Below, in pieces: positions 5,251 to 23,011 of a DNA stretch of 23,852 bases. Each line of letters begins with the position of its first letter. Position 1 is the first letter of the stretch. The translations under genes were made by a program, and so were the position numbers. Location of the stretch: positions 1-23,852 of the IMG/VR virus record IMGVR_UViG_3300035698_023058, one strand, 5' to 3'. Under the pieces are notes generated by a model. That model was not told the DNA's origin. It saw only the letters and a program-made list of their open reading frames with translations, and did no database searches. The stretch comes from a virus.

Positions 5251-6777
5251 ATGATATTAGATAAATATGTTTATATAACTGGTCACTCAAAAAATCTAAA
5301 ACACTACAGGAGTCTTGGATATGAATTATCAGTTAAGGAAAAAATACAAATTAACCCAACCCATTTAACTAGTGGTTCCACATTTATTGTAAATTATAAA
5401 TGTGATATATGTGGTGTTGTAAAAAAATCACAATTTAGGGAATATTATTCATATACAAACGGTTTATCTGAAAATTATCACTGCGCCTCTTGTAATAAGG
5501 TCAAATTAAGAAAAACACTGATGGATAAATATGGGGTAGATAACCCGATGAAATTAAAATCTACAAGAGATAATTTAAAGAAAACATTAATAAAAAAATA
5601 TGGCGTAGACCACTACTCCAAGACAAAAGAGTATAAAGATAAGTATAAGAAAACTTGCATTGATAGATATGGGGTAGATAATGCCTCAAAATCAGATATA
5701 GTAAAAAAAATAATATCAGATATTAAGTTCAAAGAACATAATCTATTGGTTAAATTATCTGAAAAAATATCCAAAGAATATGATGTAATAGATTATTCCA
5801 ATCTAAGAAATTTTAAAATATATCATAAAATATGTTGTGAGAAATTTGATATTTTTGCTGGTACAATAAATGATAGGATTAGGAATAAAAATATAATATG
5901 CACAATATGCAATCCAATAGAAACTAGTTCTTCTAGTGGTGAAATAGAAGTTAATAAATTTATATTAGATAATAATATAGAAACAATAACCAATAGTTAT
6001 TCCATAATCCCACCAATGGAATTGGATATTTATATACCAAAACTAAATATAGCCATTGAGTTCAATGGTGTGTATTGGCATTCTGAAGTATTCAAAAATA
6101 AAGATTACCATATAAACAAAACCAAAATTTGTAAAAGTAGTGGTATTGAGTTATTACATATATGGGAAGATGATTGGAAAAATAAAAGACCAATAATTGA
6201 GTCTATGATACTTAATAAAATAGGAATTACTCCAAATAAAATATGGGCTAGAAATTGTGAAATAAGAGAAATTAACGATGTTAAAATATCAAGAGAGTTT
6301 TTGAATGAAAACCACATACAAGGTTATTCGAATTCAAAATTCAAAATTGGTTTATACCATAAGAATGAACTAATCAGTATTATGACATTTTCTAAGAAAA
6401 GGAAAAATATGGAATTAGTAAGATTTTGCTCTAAGTTAAATACTAATGTGGTTGGTGGATCATCTAGATTATTTAAATACTTTATAAGGAAATATAATTA
6501 TGATAATGTCATATCATATAGTGATATTTCTTTTTTTAGTGGTGGTATGTATGAAAAATTAGGATTTACACTAGATGGATCAACTCCTCCAAATTATTGG
6601 TGGGTTGTGGATTATACAAGAAAACATAGATTTAACTTCAATAAAAAAAATCTTAAAAAAATTATTGGAGAAAATTTTGATAATAAAAAAACAGAATCAG
6701 AAATAATGAATGGGTTGGGATATAATAAGATATGGGGATGTGGATTAAAAAGGTGGGTATTCCAAATCAAAAAATAA
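5251..6777 (+). CDS. Free-standing homing endonuclease, Vsr/EDxHD-like, GNAT-like C-terminus
   Basis: A 508-residue paralogue of the gene at 2107. Residues 1-85 form the same N-terminal domain (LGYEL; a CDIC pair followed by CASC, putative zinc ligands). Residues 86-150 hold three 23-residue KYGVD repeats, fewer than the seven in the 2107 copy. A CTIC pair near residue 217 precedes the nuclease core: E of GEIEV, ELDIYIP, EFNGVYWHS and HIWEDDW. The C-terminal domain starts at WARNCEIRE (about residue 330). It carries IGLY..NELISIMTF, ELVRFCSKL, VVGGSSRLFK, GGMYEKLGF and PPNYWWVVD, ending with a WGCGLKRW motif. These C-terminal features pair it with the 19470 copy rather than with 2107 or 13592. 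It lies directly downstream of the sigma-factor gene, a typical intergenic location for a mobile gene beside an essential target. Confidence 0.85.
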   Translation: MILDKYVYITGHSKNLKHYRSLGYELSVKEKIQINPTHLTSGSTFIVNYKCDICGVVKKSQFREYYSYTNGLSENYHCASCNKVKLRKTLMDKYGVDNPMKLKSTRDNLKKTLIKKYGVDHYSKTKEYKDKYKKTCIDRYGVDNASKSDIVKKIISDIKFKEHNLLVKLSEKISKEYDVIDYSNLRNFKIYHKICCEKFDIFAGTINDRIRNKNIICTICNPIETSSSSGEIEVNKFILDNNIETITNSYSIIPPMELDIYIPKLNIAIEFNGVYWHSEVFKNKDYHINKTKICKSSGIELLHIWEDDWKNKRPIIESMILNKIGITPNKIWARNCEIREINDVKISREFLNENHIQGYSNSKFKIGLYHKNELISIMTFSKKRKNMELVRFCSKLNTNVVGGSSRLFKYFIRKYNYDNVISYSDISFFSGGMYEKLGFTLDGSTPPNYWWVVDYTRKHRFNFNKKNLKKIIGENFDNKKTESEIMNGLGYNKIWGCGLKRWVFQIKK

Positions 6778-8832: not shown

Positions 8833-10539
8833 ATGGCTTCATATAACCAATATTCACAATCTAACAGCACCGATTATGTTTTTCAAAACACCGCTGTTGA
8901 AAACAAGGGGTTATTTAGTAGGATTCTTAGGAACCTATCGAGCCATGGAATGAATTATGATGATATGGTTCTTAGGAACCAAGTTGGTGTTGGTATAAAT
9001 GAGGATCCTTACTCATCAAAGGGAAATTCTATGTATGATTTTTTCTCACAAAGGGCAGTTGCTTCTGTCTTAAATAGAAAATCGATTCCTTATTTAGATA
9101 AATCATATGCAGATAAAAGGAGAATACTTAGGGAATACTCTATAAAGGATGAGATAAGAGATTTTGTATCATCTGTTTGTGATGAGGCAGTGGTTTATAA
9201 TGATGATAGTGATTTTTGTTCACCAAGACCAATATCTAATGAGTACCCACAAGAAGTACAAGATAAATATCAAGAATATTTTGAGAAAATATATACTAAA
9301 TTTGGATTTGCTGATACAATAACCGCTTGGAATATGATGAAAGATTTCTTAGTAGATGGCTATTTGGCAGTTGAGATAATATATGATGACAAGAAGAAGA
9401 ATATAATAGCATTTAATAGATTGAGACCAGAAACTCTTGTTCCAGCCTATGAGGCACAAGTTGGTCACCTATGGATACAATATCCAGAAGATCCACAATT
9501 AAGAAGAATTTATTTAGATTCACAAATAATATTTTTATCATATTCTACACAAGATGATTATTCGGAAACATCATATGTCGAAGGATTAATAAAGCCCTAT
9601 AATCAACTTAAAATATTAGAACAAACTAGAATTATGTTTAACGTGCTGAATGCACAAGTTTATCAAAAATTTACAGTTCCAATTAAAGGAATGTCAAGAC
9701 AAAGGGCTGAAGAACAAATTGGTCAATTAATACACGATTATTCAGAAGAAATTGAGTGGGATGATACACTTGGCACATTGAGTATAAACGGACAAAAGCA
9801 TTTACATTACAATAAACAAATATGGTTTCCAGAAGGAGAAGCCGGTACTCCAAATATGGAACTAGTTAAACAAGAGGGACATGATTTAAATGATGAAACT
9901 ATGCTTTCTTGGTTCTTTAGATCACTCAAAAGAGCATCAAAGATTCCTATACAAAGATTTGAGTCTGATAATGGTGGTGGTAATTTATTTGGTGATGCTT
10001 CTGAGATGACAAGAGATGAGATAAAATTTCACAACTTCATAAGTAGACTAAGAGCTAATTTTAAAGAAATATTAGTAAAGCCATTGAAATTACAAATGCT
10101 AATTGAGTTCCCTGAGCTTAGAGATGATGATGTTTTTAATAATCAAGTAGATATAAATTTCTATACAAATCAAATATTTGAAGAGTGGAAAAAAATAAAT
10201 AATTTATCTAAAAGAGCCGATGTTGTTTCAACATTACTAAGTGTTATGAAAACTGATGAAAAACCATACTTTCACATAGAATGGATTATGGATAATGTAT
10301 TTAAATTAACACCAGAAGAAAAAGCAGAAAATGAAAGATATTGGGCAAGAGATAGTGGAAGTGGTCAACCAGAAGGACAAGAGATAGAAGGAATGGACGA
10401 CACAGAAGGCAGTGGCGGATTTGATGAAGGCCCAGGTGGTGGAGTTGATGAAGGCCCGGCTGATAACGATGGAGGCGGTGGTTTTGATGGCCCGGCACCG
10501 GATGATGGAGCTAATGATTCAGAAGAATTTGAATTTTAA
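8833..10539 (+). CDS. Portal vertex protein (T4 gp20-like)
   Basis: A 568-residue homologue of T4 gp20 (524 residues), the dodecameric portal through which DNA is packaged and to which the neck attaches. Family hallmarks include the N-terminal region with VLNRKSIPYLDKSYADKRR and IRDFVSSVCDEAVVYN. They also include the core (FLVDGYLAVEIIYD, then LRPETLVP) and the tunnel/clip region with Q.WFPEGEAGTPNMELV. The signature MTRDEIKFHNFISRLR (residues about 393-408) corresponds to the ITRDE..F.KFI.RLR motif of gp20. Residues about 510-568 form a Gly/Asp/Pro-rich, highly acidic disordered tail not typical of T4 gp20. The gene follows an A-rich leader and lies upstream of the protease and capsid genes, though separated from them by inserted genes. 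Confidence 0.9.
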   Translation: MASYNQYSQSNSTDYVFQNTAVENKGLFSRILRNLSSHGMNYDDMVLRNQVGVGINEDPYSSKGNSMYDFFSQRAVASVLNRKSIPYLDKSYADKRRILREYSIKDEIRDFVSSVCDEAVVYNDDSDFCSPRPISNEYPQEVQDKYQEYFEKIYTKFGFADTITAWNMMKDFLVDGYLAVEIIYDDKKKNIIAFNRLRPETLVPAYEAQVGHLWIQYPEDPQLRRIYLDSQIIFLSYSTQDDYSETSYVEGLIKPYNQLKILEQTRIMFNVLNAQVYQKFTVPIKGMSRQRAEEQIGQLIHDYSEEIEWDDTLGTLSINGQKHLHYNKQIWFPEGEAGTPNMELVKQEGHDLNDETMLSWFFRSLKRASKIPIQRFESDNGGGNLFGDASEMTRDEIKFHNFISRLRANFKEILVKPLKLQMLIEFPELRDDDVFNNQVDINFYTNQIFEEWKKINNLSKRADVVSTLLSVMKTDEKPYFHIEWIMDNVFKLTPEEKAENERYWARDSGSGQPEGQEIEGMDDTEGSGGFDEGPGGGVDEGPADNDGGGGFDGPAPDDGANDSEEFEF

Positions 10540-10614: not shown

Positions 10615-11256
10615 ATGAAATTATCTAGATATAAAGACTTTGATCGTAATTTAAAATTCTTATGTGAGAAATACCAAATAGAAAACTACACAATAAATAA
10701 CGATGGATCAATTGATGTTAATGGTGATGTAGATATATCATTTAAGGACTTAGAAAGGATTCCAATAAATTTTAGAAACGTAACTGGTGAATTCCATTGT
10801 GATAATAACAAATTAACCACATTAGAAGGATCACCAATTCATGTTGGTAAGGGATTTAATTGCTCTAGTGATAATAAAACAAGCAATAGACTAAAAAACC
10901 TAATAGGCGCACCTGAATATGTTGGTGGAGATTTCGATTGTGCATATAGTGGTATAAAAAGTTTAGTCGGTTCTCCAAAATATGTAGGTGGTGTCTTTTA
11001 TTGTGATAGTAATGAGTTATCAAATTTTGAGGGATTAGAAAATTCCAAATTAATAGGCAAATTTCTATGCGTAGGTAACAGAATACAAGAGTTATATAAC
11101 TTATTTAATGATAAAGAGTGTATTGAATTTATAAATGATTTTGATGTTATACAAGACGATAAAATCATACTAGATAGATTAAAAGAGGTATATTTTGCAC
11201 TTGGTCTTGAAGTACCAAGGCAAATTATAATAAATAATGCCTACGAAATTATTTAG
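10615..11256 (+). CDS. Phage leucine-rich-repeat-like protein
   Basis: A 213-residue protein containing about four degenerate repeats of roughly 20 residues, of the form (L/F)xGSPxYVGGxFxCxxNxLxxLxG, spanning residues 38-160. This repeat family is common in phage hypothetical proteins and is expected to fold as an irregular LRR-like solenoid. It is preceded by the frequently associated NNDGSIDVNGDVD segment (residues 28-40). The N-terminus (MKLSRYKDF) resembles the short leading motif of two other genes in this window. The gene is convergent with RNase R and overlaps it by 4 bp. Its role is unknown; solenoids of this type usually mediate protein binding. Confidence 0.7.
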   Translation: MKLSRYKDFDRNLKFLCEKYQIENYTINNDGSIDVNGDVDISFKDLERIPINFRNVTGEFHCDNNKLTTLEGSPIHVGKGFNCSSDNKTSNRLKNLIGAPEYVGGDFDCAYSGIKSLVGSPKYVGGVFYCDSNELSNFEGLENSKLIGKFLCVGNRIQELYNLFNDKECIEFINDFDVIQDDKIILDRLKEVYFALGLEVPRQIIINNAYEII

Positions 11257-13142
11257 ATTAGTATACCAAACTCGATTTGTTTCCTTTCTAAGTTAGTACT
11301 TGATACTATAACTTGAACCTCATCACCCAGTCTTATTTTCTTACCAATTGATTTATTACTAACTGTGTGATTCTTTAAATTAACATCCCACCTTCCTTCT
11401 AAAGACTGGTACCTAACCATACCAACACACTTATTTTCTACTAATTCGACATATATTCCCCAATCTGTAACAGATGATATAACACCATCAAATATTCTAC
11501 CTACTTTATCTTGTAGATATTCAACTTGTTTATATTTTATTGAATCTCTTTGTGCCTTTGTTGCGGCTATTTCACGAAGAGAACAATGTGTTGCTATTTC
11601 TTCTATTTTAACCGGATTTGATTGTGGTTTTCTCTCTAAAAAGTTATTCAGAAATATATGAGTCTTTAAATCGGGATATCTCCTAATAGGACTAGTAAAG
11701 TGTGAATAGTGAGTAAACCCAAGTCCATAATGTCCCGTATTATTTATAGTATATTTAGCCTTCGACATACTTCTAGTCACTAATGTTTCTATCATATTCT
11801 CTTCTGGCTCACCCTTTGTCTTTTTGAGAAGACTATTTAATTTTTTTTTAATATTACCGGTTATTGGTATTTCATAACCAAAATCTTTACATATGAGACT
11901 CAATTGTTCCAATTTATCTTGTGTTGGTTCATCATGAATTCTATATATGTTTGTTCTACTGGCCTTTGATAGCAATTTAGCAACAGATTTATTTGCTAAT
12001 AACATAAATTCTTCAATTAGCTTATTTGAATCTTTTTGTATTTTAGAATATACACCTATTGGTTTTCCATCTTTGTCTAACTTAAACCCAACTTCTGATC
12101 CATTTATCTCAATAGAGCCATCAGACATTCTATTTTTTCTTATCTTTTTCGCTAATCCATCCAATAACCTAACTTCTACATCAAAATCACCATCGTTTCC
12201 TTCGATTATTTCTTGTGCTTGTTCGTATGTGAATCTTCTATTGGAGTGTATTATGGTTTTTCCGAACCATTCATCTAATACATCACCATTTTTGTCTATT
12301 TTAAATATAACAGAAAATGCTAATCTATCTTTATTTGGGACAAGGGAACAAACACCATTACTTAACCTCTCCGGCAACATAGGTATTACTCTATCAACCA
12401 AATATACTGAGGTTGCTCTTTTTATAGCCTCTTTATCTAACTCGGTTCCTTCTTTTACATAATGCGAAACATCTGCTATGTGAATTCCTATTTCAAATTC
12501 ATTATCACTTATTATATTTACAGACAAAGCATCATCAAAATCTCTAGCAGAATCTGGATCTATTGTAAATGTTGTTACACCTCTAATATCTCTTCTTTTG
12601 CTTATTTCTTTTTCTGATATTTTTTCTGATATTTTTTCTGATTCTTCTTCTACTTCTTTAGGAAACTCTATTGGTAGGTTGTATTCATACATTATAGAAT
12701 TCATTTCTGCGTTATTATCTCCGGACTTACCCAATATTTCAACGATTGTCCCTTGTGGTGATTTTTTATCCCACTTGGAAAATTCAACCAATACTTTATC
12801 ACCATCCTCAGCGACCAAACCACCCCTTATATAAAAATCTACTATTATTTTTCTATTATCTGGTATAACAAAAGTACTTCTTCGACTATTTTTAGCTTTG
12901 TGTACTTTTCCCACAAACCTTTGTTTGAATCTTTTTAGTACTTTTAAGACCTTAGCCTCTGTTTCTCCATTTCTATCTATTAGTTCGAAAACTACATCAT
13001 CTAAGTGTAGTGAGTTTAGTGTATTCTTCTTGTGTATGAAGATTTCTTTGCTTTTTAGTTTTACGGTAGCATTTCCGTTTGTTGAGAATTCTATTTGACT
13101 TTGTAGAATATTCTCATCTTTCTTTTTGATCATAATATCCAT
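11253..13142 (-). CDS. rnr: RNase R / RNase II-family 3'-5' exoribonuclease
   Basis: A 629-residue exoribonuclease that degrades RNA processively from the 3' end. Residues 15-135 form two cold-shock/OB domains. A linker with MNSIMYEYNLPIEFP (148-161) and a SEKI tandem stretch (168-179) leads to the RNB domain. Its catalytic aspartates D195, D201, D203 and D204 (TIDPDSARDFDDAL) have the same spacing as in E. coli RNase II and RNase R. HIADVSHYV, PMLPERLSNGVCSL and HYSHFTSPIRRYPDL are present, so the enzyme should be active. An S1 domain forms residues about 545-629. It lacks the N-terminal helix-turn-helix and basic C-terminal tail of E. coli RNase R (813 residues). A TATAAATA sequence (plus-strand 13179-13186) with an A-rich leader lies 36 nt upstream. 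RNase R is unusual in a phage and suggests acquisition from a bacterial host. Confidence 0.92.
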   Translation of the reverse strand: MDIMIKKKDENILQSQIEFSTNGNATVKLKSKEIFIHKKNTLNSLHLDDVVFELIDRNGETEAKVLKVLKRFKQRFVGKVHKAKNSRRSTFVIPDNRKIIVDFYIRGGLVAEDGDKVLVEFSKWDKKSPQGTIVEILGKSGDNNAEMNSIMYEYNLPIEFPKEVEEESEKISEKISEKEISKRRDIRGVTTFTIDPDSARDFDDALSVNIISDNEFEIGIHIADVSHYVKEGTELDKEAIKRATSVYLVDRVIPMLPERLSNGVCSLVPNKDRLAFSVIFKIDKNGDVLDEWFGKTIIHSNRRFTYEQAQEIIEGNDGDFDVEVRLLDGLAKKIRKNRMSDGSIEINGSEVGFKLDKDGKPIGVYSKIQKDSNKLIEEFMLLANKSVAKLLSKASRTNIYRIHDEPTQDKLEQLSLICKDFGYEIPITGNIKKKLNSLLKKTKGEPEENMIETLVTRSMSKAKYTINNTGHYGLGFTHYSHFTSPIRRYPDLKTHIFLNNFLERKPQSNPVKIEEIATHCSLREIAATKAQRDSIKYKQVEYLQDKVGRIFDGVISSVTDWGIYVELVENKCVGMVRYQSLEGRWDVNLKNHTVSNKSIGKKIRLGDEVQVIVSSTNLERKQIEFGILI

Positions 13143-13167: not shown

Positions 13168-13542
13168 TTACTTTTCGCTATTTATACTATGTTTTTTGTT
13201 TATAGTTCTTTTCATTTTACTCAGAACCTTTTCGTTTTGTATTGGGTAATCTACACCATAATTCTTTCTTAGTGTCTCTTTTCTTTTATACTCTGAGCAT
13301 TTTCTACAATAGTACTCACCCCATTTGTTATCATATTTTATATAATTTTTGAAAATAACATCCTTTATTACATCACATTCCTTACCATCACAAGCACATT
13401 TTATCTTATGGTGAGAACCCTTTGATAGTAATTCTATTGGGATGGCTAATTCTTCTCCTATTACTACATCATATCCTAAATTTTCATAATATGGGAAATT
13501 AGATTCGCTTATTTTAATTGTTATTTCTCTAGTTATTATCAT
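13168..13542 (-). pseudogene. Truncated homing endonuclease: N-terminal DNA-binding part only
   Basis: These 124 residues match the first part of the endonucleases at 2107 and 5251. They include an N-terminal segment with LGYDVVIGEE…LLSKGSHH, a likely zinc module (CACDGKEC and later CRKC), and a single KYGVD-type repeat (KNYGVDYPIQNEKV). The frame then stops after a short basic tail. The nuclease core and GNAT-like domain are absent. It lies 25 bp upstream of RNase R and 49 bp downstream of a full-length copy, all on the minus strand. It is probably the remnant of a deleted endonuclease. A surviving DNA-binding protein or repressor is also possible, since its own start and stop are intact. 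Its 3' end overlaps the presumed promoter of rnr. Confidence 0.65.
13179..13186 (-). promoter_or_regulatory. Possible late promoter for rnr
   Basis: Read on the minus strand this is TATAAATA, identical to the T4 late-promoter octamer. It lies 36 nt upstream of the rnr ATG with an A-rich leader. In DNA this AT-rich a chance match is quite likely. Confidence 0.3.
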
Positions 13543-13591: not shown

Positions 13592-15199
13592 CTATTTAAT
13601 AATCATTTCAAATTTAATTTTACCACAATCATATATCCTTTTTATTTTTTTTTCTTTCATATACTTTGACTCGGTTAGGCTTGTATTTAGTTTTGATTTT
13701 TTATATTTTGACTTATGTGACCTTTTTTTCTCTATAATATATTTATAATCAGGCTTTGAGTATCCGATATTAATAAATCCTAGTTTATAATATAAATCAC
13801 CAACTGACCAATCTCTATCAGCATAACTAATTATTCTAGTTGGGTTATAATTTCTGATAAAATGTTTTAATAACTTAGATGCACCACCAATTACAACCGT
13901 GTCTATTTTATTACAAAATCTAGAAAGGTTCCACTCATCTACATCCATCTTTTTGCGTCCCTCATTATGATCAAATATCATTATACTCACTAACTCACCA
14001 TTATAATATAGTCCCAACTTAAGTGATGAGTTTGTAAATCCTTGTATATGGTTATTATTCAAAAACATTCTCGATTCTTTTACACTAACTTCACTAACTT
14101 CACACTTTCTCGCAAATATTCTGATATTTTTTGATTTTATTATATTTTTTATTTGGCTTTTTATTATATCCTTTTTTATTACCCAATCATCTTCCCAGAT
14201 ATGAATTATCCTTATTCCTCTCTCCATAAAGTACTTAGTCTTATCCAAATGATAGTTTTTATCCTTGAATTCTTCTGAGTGCCAATAAAGTCCATTAAAT
14301 TCAAAGCCTATTTTTAATTCTGGTAGGTATATGTCTATTTCTAAACCGTCTCTATATCCATCTATTATATTACTTGAGTAATTTTCTTCTATAAATTTAA
14401 AAATTTCCCTTTCTTTTATTGATTTTTGATCACCAATAGGATAGCATATTGTACATAACTTATTATTGTGTTTACTTCTACTAAGATAATTATCTGATTT
14501 TATTTCAAATTCATGTCCTTTCTCACACATAAATCTATAAACACCATCACCAATAGAATCAATACAATTATCATCATTAAATACCTTAAAGTATTTTTTC
14601 ATTTTTTCATTATATATATCTGTCTTTGAGAAATGATCAACTCCATATTTTTCAAGTAGTGTTCTTTTTATCTTTTCTTTTATTTCTTCGGACTTTAGTG
14701 GGTTATCAACTCCATATTTCTCTATTATAGTTTTTTTTATCCTGTCTTTTATTTCCTCTGACTCAAAAACATTATCAACTCCATATTTCTTCTTTGTTGT
14801 GTTTATTCTTTTTTTATTTATGTTTCTTTTTTTGCTTTTACTAAACTCCTTCTTTGTCTTATTTGCCTTTATTGTCATTTCTCTTCTTATATCAACATCG
14901 TAGTTACATGATTTCATTTTTGAAGTTCTTGACTTTTTGACTTTATCATCTTTGTGTGTGTGTTTAGCAGAACAGGATTTGCTACAATATTTTCTATATC
15001 CTATATAGAATTTTATAAATTTTACTTCATTATCACAATTTAAACAAATTGGTCTATTCTTTAATCCATTTTGAAATAGCCAAATTCTTTCTGATAGAGG
15101 CAAATCATCTTCAATAAAATCCATCATCTCATTATAGTAGTCAATGTGGTTATTTTTTAAATAATTTTCTGTTATGTTCTTTGTTGTGGTTAGTATCAT
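13592..15199 (-). CDS. Free-standing homing endonuclease, Vsr/EDxHD-like, GNAT-like C-terminus
   Basis: A 535-residue paralogue on the minus strand. The frame is open 18 codons further upstream to a GTG at 15253, but the ATG at 15199 is preferred because a TTAATATATA motif lies 8 nt before it, as for its paralogues. N-terminal zinc module: CLNC and YCSKSC. Three 23-residue KYGVD repeats follow, then a CTIC pair and the nuclease core: E of KEREIF, EIDIYLP, EFNGLYWHS and HIWEDDW. The C-terminal domain has ARKCEV, LGLYYNGELVSIMIF, EWNLSRFCNKIDT, VIGGASKLLK, SYADRDWSVGDLYYKLGF and a YDCGKIKFEM end, nearly identical in pattern to the 2107 copy. It lies divergent from, and about 120 bp from, the protease/scaffold gene. 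Confidence 0.85.
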   Translation of the reverse strand: MILTTTKNITENYLKNNHIDYYNEMMDFIEDDLPLSERIWLFQNGLKNRPICLNCDNEVKFIKFYIGYRKYCSKSCSAKHTHKDDKVKKSRTSKMKSCNYDVDIRREMTIKANKTKKEFSKSKKRNINKKRINTTKKKYGVDNVFESEEIKDRIKKTIIEKYGVDNPLKSEEIKEKIKRTLLEKYGVDHFSKTDIYNEKMKKYFKVFNDDNCIDSIGDGVYRFMCEKGHEFEIKSDNYLSRSKHNNKLCTICYPIGDQKSIKEREIFKFIEENYSSNIIDGYRDGLEIDIYLPELKIGFEFNGLYWHSEEFKDKNYHLDKTKYFMERGIRIIHIWEDDWVIKKDIIKSQIKNIIKSKNIRIFARKCEVSEVSVKESRMFLNNNHIQGFTNSSLKLGLYYNGELVSIMIFDHNEGRKKMDVDEWNLSRFCNKIDTVVIGGASKLLKHFIRNYNPTRIISYADRDWSVGDLYYKLGFINIGYSKPDYKYIIEKKRSHKSKYKKSKLNTSLTESKYMKEKKIKRIYDCGKIKFEMIIK

Positions 15200-15207
15200 A
15201 TATTTAG

Positions 15208-15217
15208 TATATATTAA
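15208..15217 (-). promoter_or_regulatory. Putative late promoter abutting the minus-strand endonuclease
   Basis: Minus-strand TTAATATATA ends 8 nt before the ATG at 15199. It lies inside the longer open frame, which argues for the internal ATG as the true start. Confidence 0.5.
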
Positions 15218-15279
15218 TTCAGTAAAAGTTCCCTCAAATTGTAAAAAATCCACATATCAATAAATTCATATTTTTTGGT

Positions 15280-15289
15280 TTTATATATA
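15280..15289 (+). promoter_or_regulatory. Putative late promoter for the protease/scaffold gene
   Basis: TTTATATATA lies 31 nt before the ATG at 15321. The leader is very A-rich. Confidence 0.5.
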
Positions 15290-15320
15290 ACACATAATTA
15301 AAAAAAAATAAATTTAATAA

Positions 15321-17447
15321 ATGAAGCCGGTTTTAATAGTAGAAAATTCAACAAGTTCACTTATCAGAGAAGAGCATAGCTCTGTTTCTGGTCAAATGGA
15401 CTATGTAATGGGTGGTACTTTCACGGAGTTTGGAGTTAAGAATCGAAACGAAAGAATTTACAATGCGCCTAAATTTCTACCTGCTTTACAAGAATTAAAT
15501 GAAAGAATAAACAACCTTGGTGTTGTTTATGGTGAGTTCGATCACCCAGATGTTTTTGATACATCTCTTTCTAGAGCATCTCACATAATAACAAAGGCTG
15601 AGTATGTATCTGAAAAAAATCTTGTGGCGGGTGAAATAAAACTCCTTAGTACATATTGGGGTAAAGAAGCAAAATCATTAGTAAATGATGGTATGCCAGT
15701 GTTTGTCTCTTCAAGAGCAGCGGGTATAACTGAAAACGATGGTTCAGTTTCTCTTAAAAAATTATTCACTTATGATATCGTTGCTGACCCTGGGTTTGCA
15801 TCGGCTAAAATGAGTGTTAAGAGCTTAAACGAGTCTCTTGGTTATAAAGATGATCAATCTAACTTTAGGATATATGAAATGTCCGATGAGTCAAAAATAA
15901 ATGAATTATTTAACATGAATAATAACGAATTCGTAACGAAAAAACAATTAACAGATTACTCTAATTATCTAGTTAATGAGTTAGCTACAACTAAGAAACA
16001 AGTTAGTGGAGCTATTACAAAAGGAAACGTAAATCCTAAAAAATTAGAACAATTACTTGAATATTATGAAGAATTAAATTCTTCAAGTTCTAAAGTAGTA
16101 GAATATTTAGAATACTTGGCTAAGAAAGTTCAAGTTGTAGTAAATGAAAATAAATCTCTAAAGGAAACAACAACTAAATTATCAAAACATAATGACTATT
16201 TAGCTGAGAATTTAGAAAAGTCTATTAACTATACTGAGTATTTAGCTGAGAATTTAGACAAGAATATTGAATATTCAGAATACATTGCTGAGAATTTAGA
16301 CAAGAATATCTCTTACTCAGAATACATTGCTGAGAATTTAGATAAAAACATTGCTTACTCAGAATACATTGCTGAGAATTTAGATAAAAACATTGCTTAC
16401 TCAGAGTATATTGCTGAGAATTTAGACAAGAATATCTCTTACTCAGAGTATTTGGCTGAGCACGTTGATAATTCGATTGCTTACTCAGAATATTTGGCTG
16501 AGCACGTTGAAGGGAATATCGAGTATTCAGAATACATTGCTGAGCATTTAGATGATAACATTGCTTACTCAGAATACATTGCTGAGAATTTAGATAAATC
16601 AATAGAATACCAAGGTGTTGTAGTTGAAAGACTTAACAGTGGTAAATTAAATGAATCTACGTCTAATACATCTATACCAACACTTAAAGATGCTGGATTT
16701 GAAAATATAAATGAAGAATTATACTATGATGATTTAGAAGAAGTTGGAGATGAAGATTTTACTTCAACTGACGAATATGAGGGTGGTGAATTTGGCACCG
16801 AAGATGAATTTGGTGAAGAAGAAGTATATGCTGGTGAAGAAGAAGAATATAACGGATTTGGTGAGCTATCACCACAAGAATTCTACAATAAAGAAGAAGA
16901 TGAGTATTGTGAAATCACCGGAGACAATGACACAGAATTATCTGAATCAATTAATAAATTAATCGAAGAAGCTAAAAAACGAAAAGTTTCTGAGACAAGT
17001 GATATGAATTTCTTGAAATTCATGAATAAATCACAAGTTGATAGTTTTTATGCTCTAACTAACGAAGAACAAGACAATGCTAAGCTACACATAAACGAAA
17101 GTAGCTACTTTACACAGAAAGATGTTTTGACTTTAATAGGTGAGTCATTATCTACTAAAAACGAAACTCTTGAAGAAAGAGTAATTAGATTGATGCCTGA
17201 AAACATTAAGCCAATCTGGGAAGGTTTGAACCAAAATTCCAAAAAATCTGTGCTTTCACAAGCTAGATTATATCCGGGAGAAGTAATGACAACCGAAAAT
17301 CAAGTTGAGCATTTCTGGAATACTAGAAATCTTAAGAAAAACGAGTCAGTAACTAAGAAATTAGTTTCACATGAAGCACTTATCCAAGAGGATACATTGT
17401 CTGATAATGAAGCACAATTAATCTTAGAGAGATTCAAAAGTTTATAA
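15321..17447 (+). CDS. Prohead maturation protease (T4 gp21-like) fused to a scaffold-like (gp22-type) region
   Basis: This 708-residue polyprotein has several zones. Residues 1-175 resemble T4 gp21: GGTFTEFGVKNRNERIY, GEFDHP with H75 and VFVSSRAAG with S130/S131, the His and Ser positions of the herpesvirus-type serine protease fold, then YDIVADPGFASA. Residues 185-292 are helical. Residues 293-432 are ten tandem 14-residue repeats (consensus YIAENLDKNIAYSE). About 470-535 is extremely acidic, and 540-708 is helical and ends LILERFKSL. In T4 the protease (gp21) and core scaffold (gp22) are separate adjacent genes, with the acidic core protein gp67 nearby; here one frame covers comparable parts. 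Each repeat carries (I/L)AE, fitting the (I/L)-x-E cleavage rule of gp21. The capsid gene follows 92 bp later. The scaffold assignment is inference from position and composition. Confidence 0.85.
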   Translation: MKPVLIVENSTSSLIREEHSSVSGQMDYVMGGTFTEFGVKNRNERIYNAPKFLPALQELNERINNLGVVYGEFDHPDVFDTSLSRASHIITKAEYVSEKNLVAGEIKLLSTYWGKEAKSLVNDGMPVFVSSRAAGITENDGSVSLKKLFTYDIVADPGFASAKMSVKSLNESLGYKDDQSNFRIYEMSDESKINELFNMNNNEFVTKKQLTDYSNYLVNELATTKKQVSGAITKGNVNPKKLEQLLEYYEELNSSSSKVVEYLEYLAKKVQVVVNENKSLKETTTKLSKHNDYLAENLEKSINYTEYLAENLDKNIEYSEYIAENLDKNISYSEYIAENLDKNIAYSEYIAENLDKNIAYSEYIAENLDKNISYSEYLAEHVDNSIAYSEYLAEHVEGNIEYSEYIAEHLDDNIAYSEYIAENLDKSIEYQGVVVERLNSGKLNESTSNTSIPTLKDAGFENINEELYYDDLEEVGDEDFTSTDEYEGGEFGTEDEFGEEEVYAGEEEEYNGFGELSPQEFYNKEEDEYCEITGDNDTELSESINKLIEEAKKRKVSETSDMNFLKFMNKSQVDSFYALTNEEQDNAKLHINESSYFTQKDVLTLIGESLSTKNETLEERVIRLMPENIKPIWEGLNQNSKKSVLSQARLYPGEVMTTENQVEHFWNTRNLKKNESVTKKLVSHEALIQEDTLSDNEAQLILERFKSL
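16197..16616 (+). repeat. Ten tandem 42-bp repeats encoding a 14-residue unit
   Basis: Exactly ten in-frame 42-bp units run without spacer inside the scaffold-like region. The central units (about 3-6) are nearly identical at DNA level; units 7-9 diverge (AEHV and AEHL in place of AENL). Each unit contains (I/L)-A-E. The absence of spacers and the intact coding frame exclude a CRISPR array. Confidence 0.95.
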
Positions 17448-17491: not shown

Positions 17492-17501
17492 TTTATATAT
17501 A
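17492..17501 (+). promoter_or_regulatory. Putative late promoter for the major capsid gene
   Basis: TTTATATATA lies 38 nt upstream of the capsid ATG. The leader contains a run of A residues and no Shine-Dalgarno sequence. Confidence 0.5.
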
Positions 17502-17539
17502 AGTTATAAAATTTAAAAAAAAAAAATAAAAATTAAATT

Positions 17540-19222
17540 ATGTCACACATTAGAATAGACAAACAAAAAGCCGTTAAGAAGTGGAGTCCAGTTTTGGAAA
17601 ACATGGGTGTTGTTGGTGATAAAGTTGAATGGATGTCGGAACTTGCTGAGTTTCACTCAATCAACGAAAACGCTTATGCAAATGCTTCTAACGTTTCAGG
17701 TATGGGATCAGTTATCGCTGCTCAACCTTCAACATTACCAGGTTCTACAATTGGTAGCAATTGGGGATCAAACTCAGGAACTTTAGGTTCAGGAGATGTA
17801 GGTCAAAACCTTTTACCAGTAGCAATGAAAATCGCTGCTCAAACAATCGGTTTAGATCTTGTAGCTGTAAAACCTTCACCGGGTCCAAAAATTGACTTAC
17901 TTTATGTAGATTTTCGTTATGATGATACTCCATTAGGTGACCAAGACGAAAGACCACAGGTTTTCAAATTAAATGTTACTAATACTGCTGAAAAAGCATT
18001 AGTTAAAGCAACATTAACAACAAACGCTGGTGTTCAAACACAAGGTGGTTTGGTTAATACTTACTTCACAAACGTTTATGGTACTGCCGTGAACACTATT
18101 ACTGAGCCTGCTGGTTCTAAAGCTGGAGTTGTTGAATTCTTAGGATTCTCTCGTATTGATGGATTACCAATGTTTAGAGCTTACAGACAGTTCAACACAG
18201 CACACACTGGAGTTACAACTGCTACTGACCTTTGGACGTTTGATACAACAAGAAATACATTCAACCCAACTCAATCAATGATTGAGCAAATTACAACAGT
18301 TGGTACTGCTTCTGTTACTTCTGGTATAGATGGACTTACTATTGAATTAGTATCTGCTCTTGAAGATCACATCCCAGGTTTCTCTGCAAACTGGAACGAT
18401 GGTGGTAAATACCCAATGGATAGAGATATGGATGATTCAAGATACCCAGGTATCATTGGTCCAAAAATCTCTTCTAAAACTGTTGCAGTTGGTACTATCG
18501 AAGTAACTTCTGCTCTTAGAAGAACAGAAATTGAAGATATCAAAGCTAATACAGGTATGGATATCGTTCAAAAAATGGAATCAATTCTTGTTAATGAACT
18601 TTCACAAACAATCTCTAAGCAAATTGTTGCTAAGATTTTTGAAATGGGTGAATTAAATAGAGAGTCTGCTCCATTATTCGGTGGTACTTCTACTATCACA
18701 GGTCAAACTATTTTCGATTTAGATACTGATTATGTATCTGCTGTCGGTGGTGAGACAACACACGCGGTTCAAAGAAAGCTTATCACTAAGATAATGCATG
18801 CTTCTAACTTTATCGCAACAGAGGGTCGTGTAGGTCCTGCTCAATTCTTAGTTACAAATGGTGGTCTTGCTGCTGCTTTAGCTGATATTAGTGGATATAC
18901 ATTAAACCCAACTAAATCTAAAATGAATGGCGCTGGTCAATTATACCCAGTAGGTTCAATTGGAGATATCTCTATATATGTTGATCCATATATGAAGTAT
19001 AACGACAATAGAGTTGTTCTTGGTAGAAAAAACAATCCTGATCAACCAGGTATCATTTTCGTACCATACTTGATGGCTCAATCAATCTCTATCATCTCAG
19101 AAGCGACTTTCGCTCCTAGAATGCTATTACGTTCAAGATATGCCGTAACAGAAGTTGGATGGTTCCCACAAAAGCAATTCATGACTATTAAGGTTGCGGA
19201 TGCTAAGTCATTATTAAACTAA
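17540..19222 (+). CDS. Major capsid protein (T4 gp23-like)
   Basis: This 560-residue protein is the hexamer-forming shell subunit (T4 gp23 is 521 residues). The N-terminus (KKWSPVLENMGV) parallels the KWKPLLEGEG of gp23. It is followed by a short propeptide and a NAYANASNVSGMG segment resembling the region just after the gp23 cleavage site. Candidate cleavage sites are LAE (35-37) and INE (41-43). The core includes IGLDLVAVKPSPGPKIDLLYVDFRY, and the later part has an ALRRTEIEDIKANTGMDIVQKMESILVNEL helix region. A Gly/Thr-rich segment (about 165-265) may be an inserted surface domain. It ends with a RSRYAVTEVGWFP-type strand. Codon use is richer in G/C-ending and preferred codons than its neighbours, as expected of a highly expressed gene. 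A strong terminator follows. Confidence 0.93.
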   Translation: MSHIRIDKQKAVKKWSPVLENMGVVGDKVEWMSELAEFHSINENAYANASNVSGMGSVIAAQPSTLPGSTIGSNWGSNSGTLGSGDVGQNLLPVAMKIAAQTIGLDLVAVKPSPGPKIDLLYVDFRYDDTPLGDQDERPQVFKLNVTNTAEKALVKATLTTNAGVQTQGGLVNTYFTNVYGTAVNTITEPAGSKAGVVEFLGFSRIDGLPMFRAYRQFNTAHTGVTTATDLWTFDTTRNTFNPTQSMIEQITTVGTASVTSGIDGLTIELVSALEDHIPGFSANWNDGGKYPMDRDMDDSRYPGIIGPKISSKTVAVGTIEVTSALRRTEIEDIKANTGMDIVQKMESILVNELSQTISKQIVAKIFEMGELNRESAPLFGGTSTITGQTIFDLDTDYVSAVGGETTHAVQRKLITKIMHASNFIATEGRVGPAQFLVTNGGLAAALADISGYTLNPTKSKMNGAGQLYPVGSIGDISIYVDPYMKYNDNRVVLGRKNNPDQPGIIFVPYLMAQSISIISEATFAPRMLLRSRYAVTEVGWFPQKQFMTIKVADAKSLLN

Positions 19223-19324: not shown

Positions 19325-19393
19325 GCAGGAGTAGCATAAGTTAATGTGCTAGACTTCCAGTCTAGAGATTCTGTTCAAATCAGACTCCTTGCT
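19325..19393 (+). tRNA. tRNA-Gly (anticodon UCC)
   Basis: A cloverleaf can be drawn. The D-arm starts at GCAT (19334). The anticodon stem CTAGA/TCTAG encloses the loop CTTCCAG with anticodon TCC. The T-loop TTCAAAT sits on a stem of about 4 bp. The acceptor GCAGGAG faces TCCTTGC, with discriminator T as in bacterial tRNA-Gly and no encoded CCA. The fit is imperfect: the acceptor has either an A-C mismatch plus G-U pairs or a bulged T, the T-stem has a T-C mismatch, and the D-loop is short (6 nt). UCC reads GGA, a codon common in this AT-rich genome. It lies between two terminators. Confidence 0.8.
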
Positions 19394-19469: not shown

Positions 19470-21095
19470 ATGAAAAAAGATATAATAGACAAAATATTAG
19501 ATAATAAAAGGAATCGACTCAGGGAGTCATACTTTATTAAAAATCATACTGATATATATCTCGATATAAAAAAATACACAGAAAACCTAGAAATACCATT
19601 CAAACAAAAAGTTTGGCATTGGGTAAATAATAAAGAATCATATATAGTATGTAGGTGTGGTAAGAAAACAACCTTTAATAAAAACTGGCTAGATGGATAT
19701 AGAAAGCATTGTAGTCAGATATGCGTTGGACTAGATAATGATATTAAAAAAAAGAGAGAAATTACTAATTTAAAAAAATATGGTGTTACTAATGTGGCAA
19801 AAAATATAGATATAAAGAAAAAACAAGAGTCTACTAATCTAAAGAGATATGGATATAAATCCAGTTTTCAAAATAAGGATGTTAGAAAAAAATGGACTAA
19901 TAATATGATGATAAAACACGGTATCAGTCACTATTTTAAGACCGATGAGTTTAAAGAGAAGTCTATTAATACAAACCAGAGTAAATATGGGGTTGACTAT
20001 TATGTACAATCTACTAATTATAAAAATGACTTAGATAATATGTTATTTGGTGATTTATTAAGAGATAATAATATAACCAAACACATATCCAAATATGAAA
20101 GCTTGGGTTATAAATTCATATCACTAGAAAATAGAAATTTAAAGCTAGAAAATAAAGAAGGATGTAAACACAAATTTGATATATCATATGATGTTTTTAT
20201 GAGTAGATCTAAAAATGACTATGAGGTATGTACAATATGTAATAATATAAAGAGTGGTCAATCCAATAAAGAAAAGAAGATAATTGAATGGTTACACACC
20301 ATCGTTTATAATGTAATAGAGAGAGATAGAGAGTTTGGTGTGGAGGTTGATATATACCTACCAGAATATAATTTAGCAATAGAGTTTAATGGGCTATATT
20401 GGCACTCAGAGGAATATAAGGATAAAAAATATCATTTAAATAAAACAAACATTCTTAAAAAGGCAAACATTAGCCTTATTCATATCTGGGAAGATGATTG
20501 GGACTATAAACAAGATATAGTAAAGTCTATAATATTGAATAAACTATACCTCATAAATAATAAGGTATATGCTAGAAATTGTAAGGTTTCATTGGTTAAT
20601 AAGGTAGATTCTAATGATTTTCTTGATTCTAATCATATACAAGGAAAAACAAGATCTCTATATAATATTGGATTATATCATAGAGAAAAATTGGTTAGTA
20701 TTATGTGTTTTAATTATAAAAATGGATCTAGTAAAAATGATATTGAATTAGTTAGATTCTGTAGTAAAATAGATACGGTTGTTATTGGTGGTTCTAGTAA
20801 ATTGTTTAATTTTTTCATAAAGAAGTATAAATTTAATAAAATTATATCATTCTCTGATATTAGCCTATTTGATGGTGGTCTATACGAAAAGTTAGGGTTC
20901 ACAAATACCGAAAATACACCACCCAACTTTTGGTGGATAGTCGATAAAAAAAGAATTAATAGGTTTAGATATAATAAATCTAGGTTAGTAAAAGATGGAT
21001 ATGACAAAAATAAAACAGAATACCAAATAATGTCAGATATTGGTAACAGTAGAATATGGGGATGTGGTTTGAAAAAGTGGATTTGGTACGAATAA
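19470..21095 (+). CDS. Free-standing homing endonuclease, Vsr/EDxHD-like, GNAT-like C-terminus
   Basis: The fourth full-length paralogue (541 residues). An N-terminal helical segment leads to a zinc module (CRCG and HCSQIC, residues about 61-89). Four 23-residue repeats follow, two of them degenerate (KRYGYKSSF and IKHGISHYF). After a CTIC pair (about residue 256) comes the nuclease core: E of NKEKKI, EVDIYLP, EFNGLYWHS and HIWEDDW. The C-terminal domain has ARNCKV, IGLYHREKLVSIMCF, ELVRFCSKIDT, VIGGSSKLF, GGLYEKLGF, PPNFWWIVD and WGCGLKKW, grouping it with the 5251 copy. It lies downstream of the capsid gene and tRNA, with its own promoter-like motif. The target was not identified. Confidence 0.85.
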   Translation: MKKDIIDKILDNKRNRLRESYFIKNHTDIYLDIKKYTENLEIPFKQKVWHWVNNKESYIVCRCGKKTTFNKNWLDGYRKHCSQICVGLDNDIKKKREITNLKKYGVTNVAKNIDIKKKQESTNLKRYGYKSSFQNKDVRKKWTNNMMIKHGISHYFKTDEFKEKSINTNQSKYGVDYYVQSTNYKNDLDNMLFGDLLRDNNITKHISKYESLGYKFISLENRNLKLENKEGCKHKFDISYDVFMSRSKNDYEVCTICNNIKSGQSNKEKKIIEWLHTIVYNVIERDREFGVEVDIYLPEYNLAIEFNGLYWHSEEYKDKKYHLNKTNILKKANISLIHIWEDDWDYKQDIVKSIILNKLYLINNKVYARNCKVSLVNKVDSNDFLDSNHIQGKTRSLYNIGLYHREKLVSIMCFNYKNGSSKNDIELVRFCSKIDTVVIGGSSKLFNFFIKKYKFNKIISFSDISLFDGGLYEKLGFTNTENTPPNFWWIVDKKRINRFRYNKSRLVKDGYDKNKTEYQIMSDIGNSRIWGCGLKKWIWYE

Positions 21096-21123: not shown

Positions 21124-21210
21124 AAGATAATAGATGAACCACCAAATAAAACAAGGCCTAATAATGTGTCAATTTCACAAATTAGAAACAATAAGATAGT
21201 TGATACTTAA
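21124..21210 (+). pseudogene. Possible orphan C-terminal coding remnant
   Basis: After a TAG at 21121, 28 codons are open with protein-like composition (KIIDEPPNKTRP…RNNKIVDT) up to TAA at 21208, without any start codon. It could be the 3' end of a gene lost when the endonuclease arrived, or chance. Nothing else is seen between 21096 and the promoter at 21230. Confidence 0.2.
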
Positions 21211-21229
21211 AATAAATTCATATTCATTT

Positions 21230-21239
21230 TTAATATATA
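21230..21239 (+). promoter_or_regulatory. Putative late promoter of the NFACT-R/peptidase operon
   Basis: TTAATATATA after a T run ends 5 nt before the ATG at 21245. This supports that ATG over the upstream in-frame TTG at 21200. Confidence 0.55.
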
Positions 21240-21244
21240 CTATT

Positions 21245-21634
21245 ATGATTAAGAGTTATGAATATTTCCTTGAAGGTAAAAATAAAAAGTTTCCTGACAC
21301 AAAAGTATCTGAGTTTAATGGCTTTGATATATATGTTGGTAGAGATGCAAAATCCAATGATCATTTAACATTCAATATGGCTGGTGATGATGATATATGG
21401 TTACACACTAAGGGTGTACCAGGTAGCCATGTTGTTATTATGGTCAAAAATGAGTTACCTAGTAAAGAAACAATAAAATATGCCGCTGAATTAGCCAAAA
21501 AGAATAGTAAATCTAAGAATTTAAATTTAGCTGATGTGGTTTATTGCAAAAGAAAGTTCGTTAAAAAAGAGAAAAGTATGAATGATGGTCAAGTAAAAGT
21601 TGATTATAAAAACTCCGAAATAATCAAAGTATAA
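21245..21634 (+). CDS. Free-standing NFACT-R (DUF814) domain protein
   Basis: This 129-residue protein is almost entirely an NFACT-R domain, the RNA-binding module found at the C-terminal side of RqcH/NEMF/Tae2 ribosome quality-control proteins. The signature is clear: GFDIYVGRDAKSND (26-39), DIWLHTKGVPGSHVVI (50-65), ET.KYAAELAKKNSKSK (75-91) and a basic KRKFVKK segment, ending in the strand SEIIKV. The NFACT-N, helix-hairpin-helix and coiled-coil parts needed for alanine-tailing by RqcH are absent. Full RqcH proteins are about 550 residues. The N-terminus MIKSYEYFLEG resembles capsid-targeting leaders of T4 internal proteins. The first gene of an operon, it is followed 15 nt later by a peptidase gene. 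Its role is unknown; RNA or tRNA/ribosome binding is the family expectation. Confidence 0.85.
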   Translation: MIKSYEYFLEGKNKKFPDTKVSEFNGFDIYVGRDAKSNDHLTFNMAGDDDIWLHTKGVPGSHVVIMVKNELPSKETIKYAAELAKKNSKSKNLNLADVVYCKRKFVKKEKSMNDGQVKVDYKNSEIIKV

Positions 21635-21649
21635 ATAAAAATATAAACT

Positions 21650-23011
21650 ATGGCAGCAGTAGATAGATCCGATGGAATAAAAATAGAATTTTCTGATAAA
21701 TTAATTGATATATTAAAAGAATTGGAAGCTAATAACTATTATATAGCTTTTGAGTTATTATATATGAGTGATAAGGATGCAAAATATTTAAATGGCTTAA
21801 AAATAACAGATATTGATGTTGGTAAAGATTTTACATTTAAAGTGAAAATAGATGGAAAGTCTTATTATATGAAAGTAGGTAGATTTCTTAGATATTTTTA
21901 TCAAGGAATATTCAAAAATGATGAAATAGCTAAATTTTCCAAAGCTTATAATAAACTAAAAGATGGTGATAGTATAAAATCTGATGCAAAAAGGATAAAT
22001 GTTTCTAAATTTGAATATAAACCAAAGGACCCAAGGGAAACGTTTTTATCATTAACAACAAAAACATACCCATACGGAAATGAAGATGAACTTCTTTATT
22101 TTTTACCAGACTTAGAAAAAGACAAACATGGTAATTATTATAAGATAATTGGAGAAAATAAAGAACCTAGTGTTATGTTTTCATCACACTTAGATACCGC
22201 AGATAGAAAACAAGAACCAACAGAGTTATATTCAAAAGAAGAAGATGGTGACGAGATAATATTTACGAATGGTATGACTATATTAGGAGCAGATGATAAA
22301 GCTGGTGTAACTATTATGTTGTATATGATGGAACATAATGTACCTGGATTATATTATTTCTTTATAGGTGAAGAAAGAGGTGGTATTGGTTCCAATAAGT
22401 TATCTTTTGATTTCTATAACACAGAGTATTTAAAAAATGTAGATATGTGTGTTTCTTTTGATAGAAGAAAAACAGAATCTGTTATAACACAACAAATGGG
22501 TAGAGTTTGTTGCTCAGACCAATTTGGTGTTGCTTTGTGTAAAGAGTATAATAAGAGTGGTTTAAACTTATCACTAGATCCAGGTGGAATATATACCGAT
22601 TCTGCCTCATTTATTGATGAAATACCCGAATGTACTAACGTATCTGTTGGGTATGATAATGAACATACTGGTAGAGAATTACAAAATATGACATTTTTAA
22701 TAAAGATGTGTGAGGCTTCTGTTGATGTCGATTGGCAAAATTTACCAATTGCTAGAAAAGTTGGTCTAAATAACGAACTTATAGCCAAACATAAAGCACT
22801 AATAGATGATATAAAGAGTGGTTCTTTTAACCAAGAAGTTAAAATGGTCGGAATGGATGATGATATATATGTTAGAATAGATATGGATGGCAGCGAGGTT
22901 GATACCGCATTTGATACATTAACAATTATGCAGTTCTTATTAGATAAATATAAAGTAGATGATGCTGATGTTTTAATAGAAGATTCCTACATAAAAATAC
23001 AATTAACATAA
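21650..23011 (+). CDS. Metallopeptidase, M20/M28/M42-type (MH clan), with N-terminal extension
   Basis: A 453-residue protein. Residues about 170-420 form a di-metal aminopeptidase-like domain: SSHLDT (H180, D182), LGADDKAG (D215), FFIGEERGG (E241/E242, catalytic base and metal ligand), SFDRR (D271) and NVSVGYDNEHTGRE (H339). All expected ligand and catalytic positions are filled, so the enzyme should be active and cytoplasmic (no signal peptide). Residues 1-140 are an additional acidic/basic domain without recognisable family. Residues 395-453 form a small C-terminal domain with alternating strands. The gene is second in the operon and its stop lies one base before the next ATG. Substrate unknown. 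PepT-like peptide trimming is the closest analogy, but the exact family cannot be fixed by eye. Confidence 0.82.
   Translation: MAAVDRSDGIKIEFSDKLIDILKELEANNYYIAFELLYMSDKDAKYLNGLKITDIDVGKDFTFKVKIDGKSYYMKVGRFLRYFYQGIFKNDEIAKFSKAYNKLKDGDSIKSDAKRINVSKFEYKPKDPRETFLSLTTKTYPYGNEDELLYFLPDLEKDKHGNYYKIIGENKEPSVMFSSHLDTADRKQEPTELYSKEEDGDEIIFTNGMTILGADDKAGVTIMLYMMEHNVPGLYYFFIGEERGGIGSNKLSFDFYNTEYLKNVDMCVSFDRRKTESVITQQMGRVCCSDQFGVALCKEYNKSGLNLSLDPGGIYTDSASFIDEIPECTNVSVGYDNEHTGRELQNMTFLIKMCEASVDVDWQNLPIARKVGLNNELIAKHKALIDDIKSGSFNQEVKMVGMDDDIYVRIDMDGSEVDTAFDTLTIMQFLLDKYKVDDADVLIEDSYIKIQLT

Follow-up and report, generated by a model that had tools for sequence, protein, structure and literature searches.

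A one-chain protease–scaffold candidate with a 14-residue repeat array in a Mahaphage genome fragment

Introduction

The largest known phages have very large scaffolds to build and to clear. How one of them might do both is a question raised by a single gene in a 23,852-nucleotide stretch of viral DNA (IMG/VR record IMGVR_UViG_3300035698_023058; hereafter the window). Its product joins a protease like gp21 of phage T4 to a long, mostly helical region with ten tandem 14-residue repeats, each carrying (I/L)AE at the same position. T4 gp21 cleaves after L/I-x-E and has such a site, LIE-9, in its own N terminus, where the propeptide is nine residues long (PMC9026906, PMC9958956). The initial annotation put the two together: the protease would dice its own scaffold into uniform 14-residue peptides able to leave the shell. 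Is the array a row of cut sites laid down for that end, or is its regularity that of a rod, cut or otherwise? The T4 prohead core has yet to be structurally resolved (PMC9958956), and a regular protease–scaffold on one chain would be a tractable system in which to study how such a rod is arranged and dismantled.

Source and gene order

The fused protein is 79.5% identical to its homologue in LR745206 (634.8 kb) and 77.4% to that in LR756502 (642 kb); the figures are 60% over 438 residues for LR756501/3 (735 kb), 50% for LR756504 (636 kb) and 32% for LR756500 (462 kb). Judged by sequence, the window is a Mahaphage fragment, kin of these 462–735 kb genomes. The largest genomes of the Mahaphage clade are 634, 636, 642 and 735 kb, and the predicted hosts are Bacteroidetes (PMC7162821).

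Genes for T4-like portal and capsid proteins are present, in the order portal, fusion, capsid. These three genes and the features mapped within them lie on the plus strand; minus-strand coordinates elsewhere are marked (-). The gene for portal protein gp20 (8833..10539; Pfam Portal_T4, 6.6e-57) gives the syntenic context, and major capsid protein gp23 (17540..19222; Pfam Gp23, 9.4e-30) is the expected second substrate of the protease. Between the fusion and the capsid gene, the window has no separate gene resembling gp22. The fusion immediately follows the portal gene in the 735 kb and 462 kb phages.

Other genes are scattered through the cluster. DUF7487 open frames recur among the head genes (2107-3852, 5251-6777, 13592-15253 (-), 19470-21095 and a fragment at 13168-13542 (-)); three show a weak endonuclease-domain match, and they are likely of the homing-endonuclease type. 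An RNase II/R-type RNB exoribonuclease (11253-13142 (-)) sits between portal and protease on the opposite strand, and a tRNA gene (19325-19393) separates the capsid gene from a DUF7487 frame. Further on, a protein with an NFACT-R domain, an RNA-binding domain of ribosome quality-control type, adjoins an M28/M42-like peptidase (21200-21634 and 21650-23011). The sequence TTTATATATAA occurs on the plus strand of the window just twice, at 15280-15290 and 17492-17502, ahead of the genes for protease and capsid protein; related ATATATA boxes precede the same genes in many homologues, and these boxes are likely late promoters.

A T4-type protease at the head of a 708-residue chain

The fused gene (15321..17447) is one open frame of 708 codons that matches phrog_207, head maturation protease, with an E value of 1.5e-25. 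It occupies the combined position of gp21 and gp22 in the portal/capsid interval, which bears out the reading of a protease fused to a scaffold-like region. Homologues of the fusion were found at 80 IMG/VR loci and in six close huge-phage records, and the fusion is kept in those compared, the 735 and 462 kb phages included.

The protease domain comprises residues 1-171 (15321..15833) and by itself matches phrog_207 at 2.3e-28. The AlphaFold2 (AF2) model of the whole protein has a mean pLDDT of 60, with residues 31-150 mostly at 77-89. Its best Foldseek match in the PDB is 5JBL, T4 gp21 (E 4.2e-6, probability 1.00, TM 0.63-0.66 on the target), followed by weak scores for the VZV, HCMV and HSV proteases; a profile search of the PDB with the protease domain also gives 5JBL (E 0.009). 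The Pfam S77 score of 15.5 bits is below the cutoff of 27 bits. In an alignment of 35 homologues, H75 in GE(F/L)DHP and S130/S131 in SSR lie in invariant motifs, and T4 gp21 has the counterparts GELNHP and SSR. The protease domain genuinely adopts a fold of the T4 gp21 type, as first supposed. A literature search for a Mahaphage capsid protease found no paper.

The remainder of the chain is less easily named. Residues 205-289 (15933..16187) form a helical linker that leads into the array and already contains degenerate repeat units, at residues 214 and 262. Beyond the array come an acidic, low-complexity, disordered segment (16698..16925; pLDDT 25-45, poorly conserved) and, at residues 535-708 (16923..17444; pLDDT 62-80), a helical domain that ends the chain. 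The C-terminal domain is found also in Lak phage (hmmsearch i-E 1.5e-7 with Z=1; hhalign probability 62). Homology of the scaffold half to T4 gp22 finds no support from hhalign, with probabilities below 1% for the C-terminal domain, the coil and the whole half, and no PHROG scaffold family was matched. Because homology to gp22 is undetectable, the scaffold label is drawn from gene order, from the helical build of the region and from the accompanying protease: this 3' part of the gene fills the place of gp22, between protease (gp21) and capsid gene (gp23).

The array and its glutamate

The array spans residues 290-429 (16188..16607; consensus YSEYIAENLDKNIA), and the coordinates and count first given for it are correct. 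There are ten exact units, free of indels and in perfect register, and in all ten position 5 is I or L, position 6 is A and position 7 is E. At the DNA level, Tandem Repeats Finder reports a period of 42, 8.4 copies and a score of 384. AF2 predicts a nearly unbroken helix over 207-439 (helices 239-344 and 348-439), with a pLDDT of about 50 in the array at which any structure-based claim is weak.

Do the motifs look selected as cut sites? Counting them is a poor guide. The whole protein has 32 (I/L)xE motifs (shuffle mean 14.5, maximum 29, 500 shuffles), and the array supplies ten; since these are copies of one unit, they represent one event and not ten. Their density, 7.1 per 100 residues in the array, is similar to that of known T4-like scaffolds (5.9 in T4 gp22). 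Nor does array composition alone point to cut-site selection, because the reverse motif Ex(I/L) outnumbers (I/L)xE there by 17 to 10, unlike gp22, which is directional (16 (I/L)xE, 6 Ex(I/L)).

Homologues in IMG/VR mostly have 10-13 repeats. Counted with a loose pattern, the 46 non-redundant sequences of clade A mostly have 11, clade B 12-13 and clade C, the most distant array-bearing clade, 8-11, against 10 in the window. Repeat number thus varies from 8 to 13 while the (I/L)AE position stays constant, the pattern anticipated for a cleavage array. Loss of the glutamate from retained repeats, named in the initial annotation as a refutation, is seen in part: E7 is kept in 504/504 repeats of clade A and 96/100 of clade B, but 17 of 69 repeats lack it in clade C. 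Even there, E7 is retained in 75% of repeats (52/69), compared with 32% for E3, 49% for N8 and 54% for D10; the two tyrosines stand at 78 and 67%. The residue before it, Ala6 (P2), drifts from 99% Ala to 30% in clade C, and position 5 is Val, outside the T4 I/L rule, in 10-43% of repeats depending on clade.

On a helix of 3.5 residues per turn, E7 lies on the exposed face, as does position 14, which shares its angle but is unconstrained in sequence. Since E7 is kept though exposed and position 14 is not, its conservation favours a function beyond packing, of which being cut is one candidate.

The spacing is another matter. Clade C retains 7- and 14-residue hydrophobic periods (autocorrelation 0.41 and 0.47; 0.23 and 0.69 in the window) while losing glutamates, Lak phages have no array, and proteins unrelated to the protease reuse the unit. 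The last are small: one of 83 residues in LR745206, two in LR756501 (207 residues with collagen-like repeats, and 76) and one of 65 in the record L064. E7 is kept less strictly in these stand-alone proteins, in 8/12 units by manual count, and the tyrosines are kept. For these reasons the 14-residue spacing looks like a reused two-heptad coiled-coil module, and the best reading of the even spacing is such a coiled coil, in preference to a design for cutting.

These small proteins, encoded elsewhere in Mahaphage genomes (loci L132, 936-1187 (-); L133, 961-1584 (+); L134, 818-1015 (-); L169, 647-877 (+)), have two to four 14-residue copies of YxxY(I/L)AE. One has collagen-like repeats and another a hydrophobic C-terminal segment.

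Predicted cleavage sites outside the array

Conservation in alignments of 35-36 homologues picks out candidate sites flanking the array. Near the N terminus, I-V-E8 (15336..15344) is the counterpart of LIE-9 in T4 gp21 and the predicted self-activation cut; E8 is invariant in 35 homologues. At the end of the protease domain, L-N-E171 (15825..15833), in a loop of the AF2 model and with N170 and E171 both invariant, is the predicted site of release of protease from scaffold. Just 3' of the array, L-N-E445 (16647..16655) is a possible third, its glutamate invariant in one homologue alignment and at least 90% conserved in the other. The capsid protein, in the peptide SELAEFHSINENAY, carries I-N-E43 / N44 (17660..17668), the predicted maturation cut: homologues examined from all three clades have (I/L/M)(N/H/Y)E at this site, with N or S as the next residue, whereas clade C has lost the YAE close by. 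Taken together, these indirect but independent signs in sequence (E8, E171, E445 and the capsid INE43) suggest that the protease keeps a T4-like hydrophobic-x-Glu rule. The flanking glutamates are kept better across clades than most of those in the array.

A proposed coiled-coil rod, probably cut

The reading we prefer, and consider somewhat more likely than not, is a one-chain Mahaphage counterpart of gp21 plus gp22 whose coiled-coil rod is degraded after hydrophobic-x-Glu sites. The chain would begin with a protease of S77 type and continue through a long alpha-helical rod and an acidic spacer to the C-terminal helical domain. Each 14-residue repeat would be a two-heptad coiled-coil unit of a rod in the prohead core, and the spacing would be regular because such units build the rod. 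Once the shell closes, the protease would free itself at IVE8 and LNE171, trim the capsid protein at INE43 / N44 and degrade the scaffold after hydrophobic-x-Glu sites. Cuts within the array would leave peptides of 14 residues or multiples of 14, akin to the short pieces of gp22. Since (I/L)AE fits the rule and lies on an exposed helix face, at least some of the array sites, on this reading of the sequence, are probably cut.

The strongest competitor, which we regard as possible but unlikely, is that the array is a structural rod and nothing else. It would then be a coiled-coil spacer, cuts would fall only at E8, E171 and E445, the rod would come away whole or in large pieces, and E7 would serve surface contacts or salt bridges. 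Much of the evidence above suits it: the module recurs in phage proteins lacking a protease, one of them with collagen-like repeats; clade C retains the period while dropping glutamates; Ex(I/L) exceeds (I/L)xE in the array; and the flanking glutamates are the more conserved. Two observations tell against it. Clade A keeps E7 in 100% of its repeats despite full exposure, while position 14 on the same face is free to vary, and in T4 many such sites are cut in gp22, which is helix-rich too (PMC9026906).

That the array evolved for its own complete dicing, into uniform 14-residue peptides leaving through pores in the shell, is possible as a purpose though very doubtful, and less likely than a coiled-coil rod degraded in the T4 manner: ten consecutive sites at 14-residue spacing, an unbroken run of E7 in clade A and a substrate on the same chain as its protease speak for it, but two heptads dictate the spacing in any case, clade C is relaxed in both copy number and glutamate, Lak phages manage without the array, and the irregular gp22 of T4 is cleared no less well.

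A conserved RNA hairpin at the protease–scaffold junction

The boundary between the two halves carries a second signal, in the RNA. Synonymous variation dips over codons 177-193 in clade A (0.47; mean over codons 1-290, 0.89, SD 0.12) and in clade B (0.21; mean 0.87, SD 0.18). Clade A has two deeper dips downstream, at codons 545 and 618, which are not in clade B. Rare codons are kept at the junction in 44-50 of 54 sequences (AGG, 10% usage; ATA, 16%; TCC, 4%; GAG, 22%). RNAalifold predicts a hairpin with two stems at 15862-15891 (15862..15891 in the window, within the coding sequence), and all nine of its pairs can form in 49 of 54 clade A and B sequences, selected independently of the hairpin motif, as against 31 of 10800 synonymous recodings. 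Its minimum free energy is -6.9 kcal/mol, and that of the recodings -2.6 (SD 1.6). Compensatory changes are few, so support comes more from conservation than from covariation. A few lineages (for example those of loci L004, L055 and L063) have lost the hairpin or retain a weaker form of it.

No genome searched has more than one copy of the core motif, so the element is no general promoter. In each of the 80 IMG/VR loci matching the hairpin pattern, the match lies within the protease–scaffold gene. Several other explanations fared poorly. An internal late promoter or internal start yielding a scaffold-only product is unproven; an AT-rich TATATA-like box is found ahead of both the protease and the capsid gene, and 53/54 clade A and B sequences retain Met199. 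A +1 frameshift at TTT-AGG, yielding protease alone, is set aside since some sequences lack the stop codon of the shifted frame. As for a homing-endonuclease target, the conserved tract is short and an RNA hairpin fits better.

Our guess is that the hairpin controls the ratio of protease to scaffold, and its place at the junction suggests a form of expression control of which we found no description in the literature searched. A bolder proposal, which we think improbable, is a pre-scored one-chain scaffold, with one cut site per repeat and the boundary hairpin setting the amounts of protease-only and scaffold-only product. If true, the scaffold would dismantle itself and carry its own control of stoichiometry, an arrangement unlike the separate genes of T4.

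Comparison with known systems

The giant-phage S80 proteases gp175 of phiKZ and gp245 of SPN3US are gp21-like, cut after x-x-E and process themselves (PMC5694885, PMC9026906). They differ from the fusion in having a separate scaffold, S/A-x-E or AxE specificity and no repeat array. Closer to home are the Lak phages, which belong to the Mahaphage clade too (PMC7162821): the Prevotella megaphage Lak-A1 has protease and related C-terminal domain in one open frame, as here, with an acidic linker in the middle where the window has its array.

Herpesviruses offer a parallel in architecture. The UL26 / UL80 precursor has a related protease fold, as the weak Foldseek matches to our model indicate, placed N-terminal to the scaffold on a single chain with a release site. 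Its cut sites are few and follow Ala, whereas the fusion has many candidate Glu sites, and an overlapping gene yields the scaffold-only product. What we describe would be a herpesvirus-like protease–scaffold fusion made with a T4-type protease.

T4 gp21 and gp22 (MEROPS S77; PDB 5JBL) have in common with the fusion the protease fold, catalytic motifs, gene position, an N-terminal IxE site and an adjoining helical scaffold rich in (I/L)xE. In T4, cyanophage P-TIM40, PA5oct, Vibrio 2.275.O and phiKT1024, however, these are two neighbouring genes, with a protease of about 210-233 residues and a separate scaffold or coil protein; the window has one. T4 gp22 is irregular, and computed cutting at every (I/L)xE gives pieces of 4-41 residues; the scaffold half here, with no detected homology to gp22, has regular repeats, and its array would give ten pieces of 14. 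The initial annotation saw in this a maturation design different from that of T4. Fusion and regularity do set the two apart, but the principle is the same, gp22 being already reduced to small peptides, and dicing of the Mahaphage scaffold, if it occurs, would be that T4 principle acting on a regular, fused substrate.
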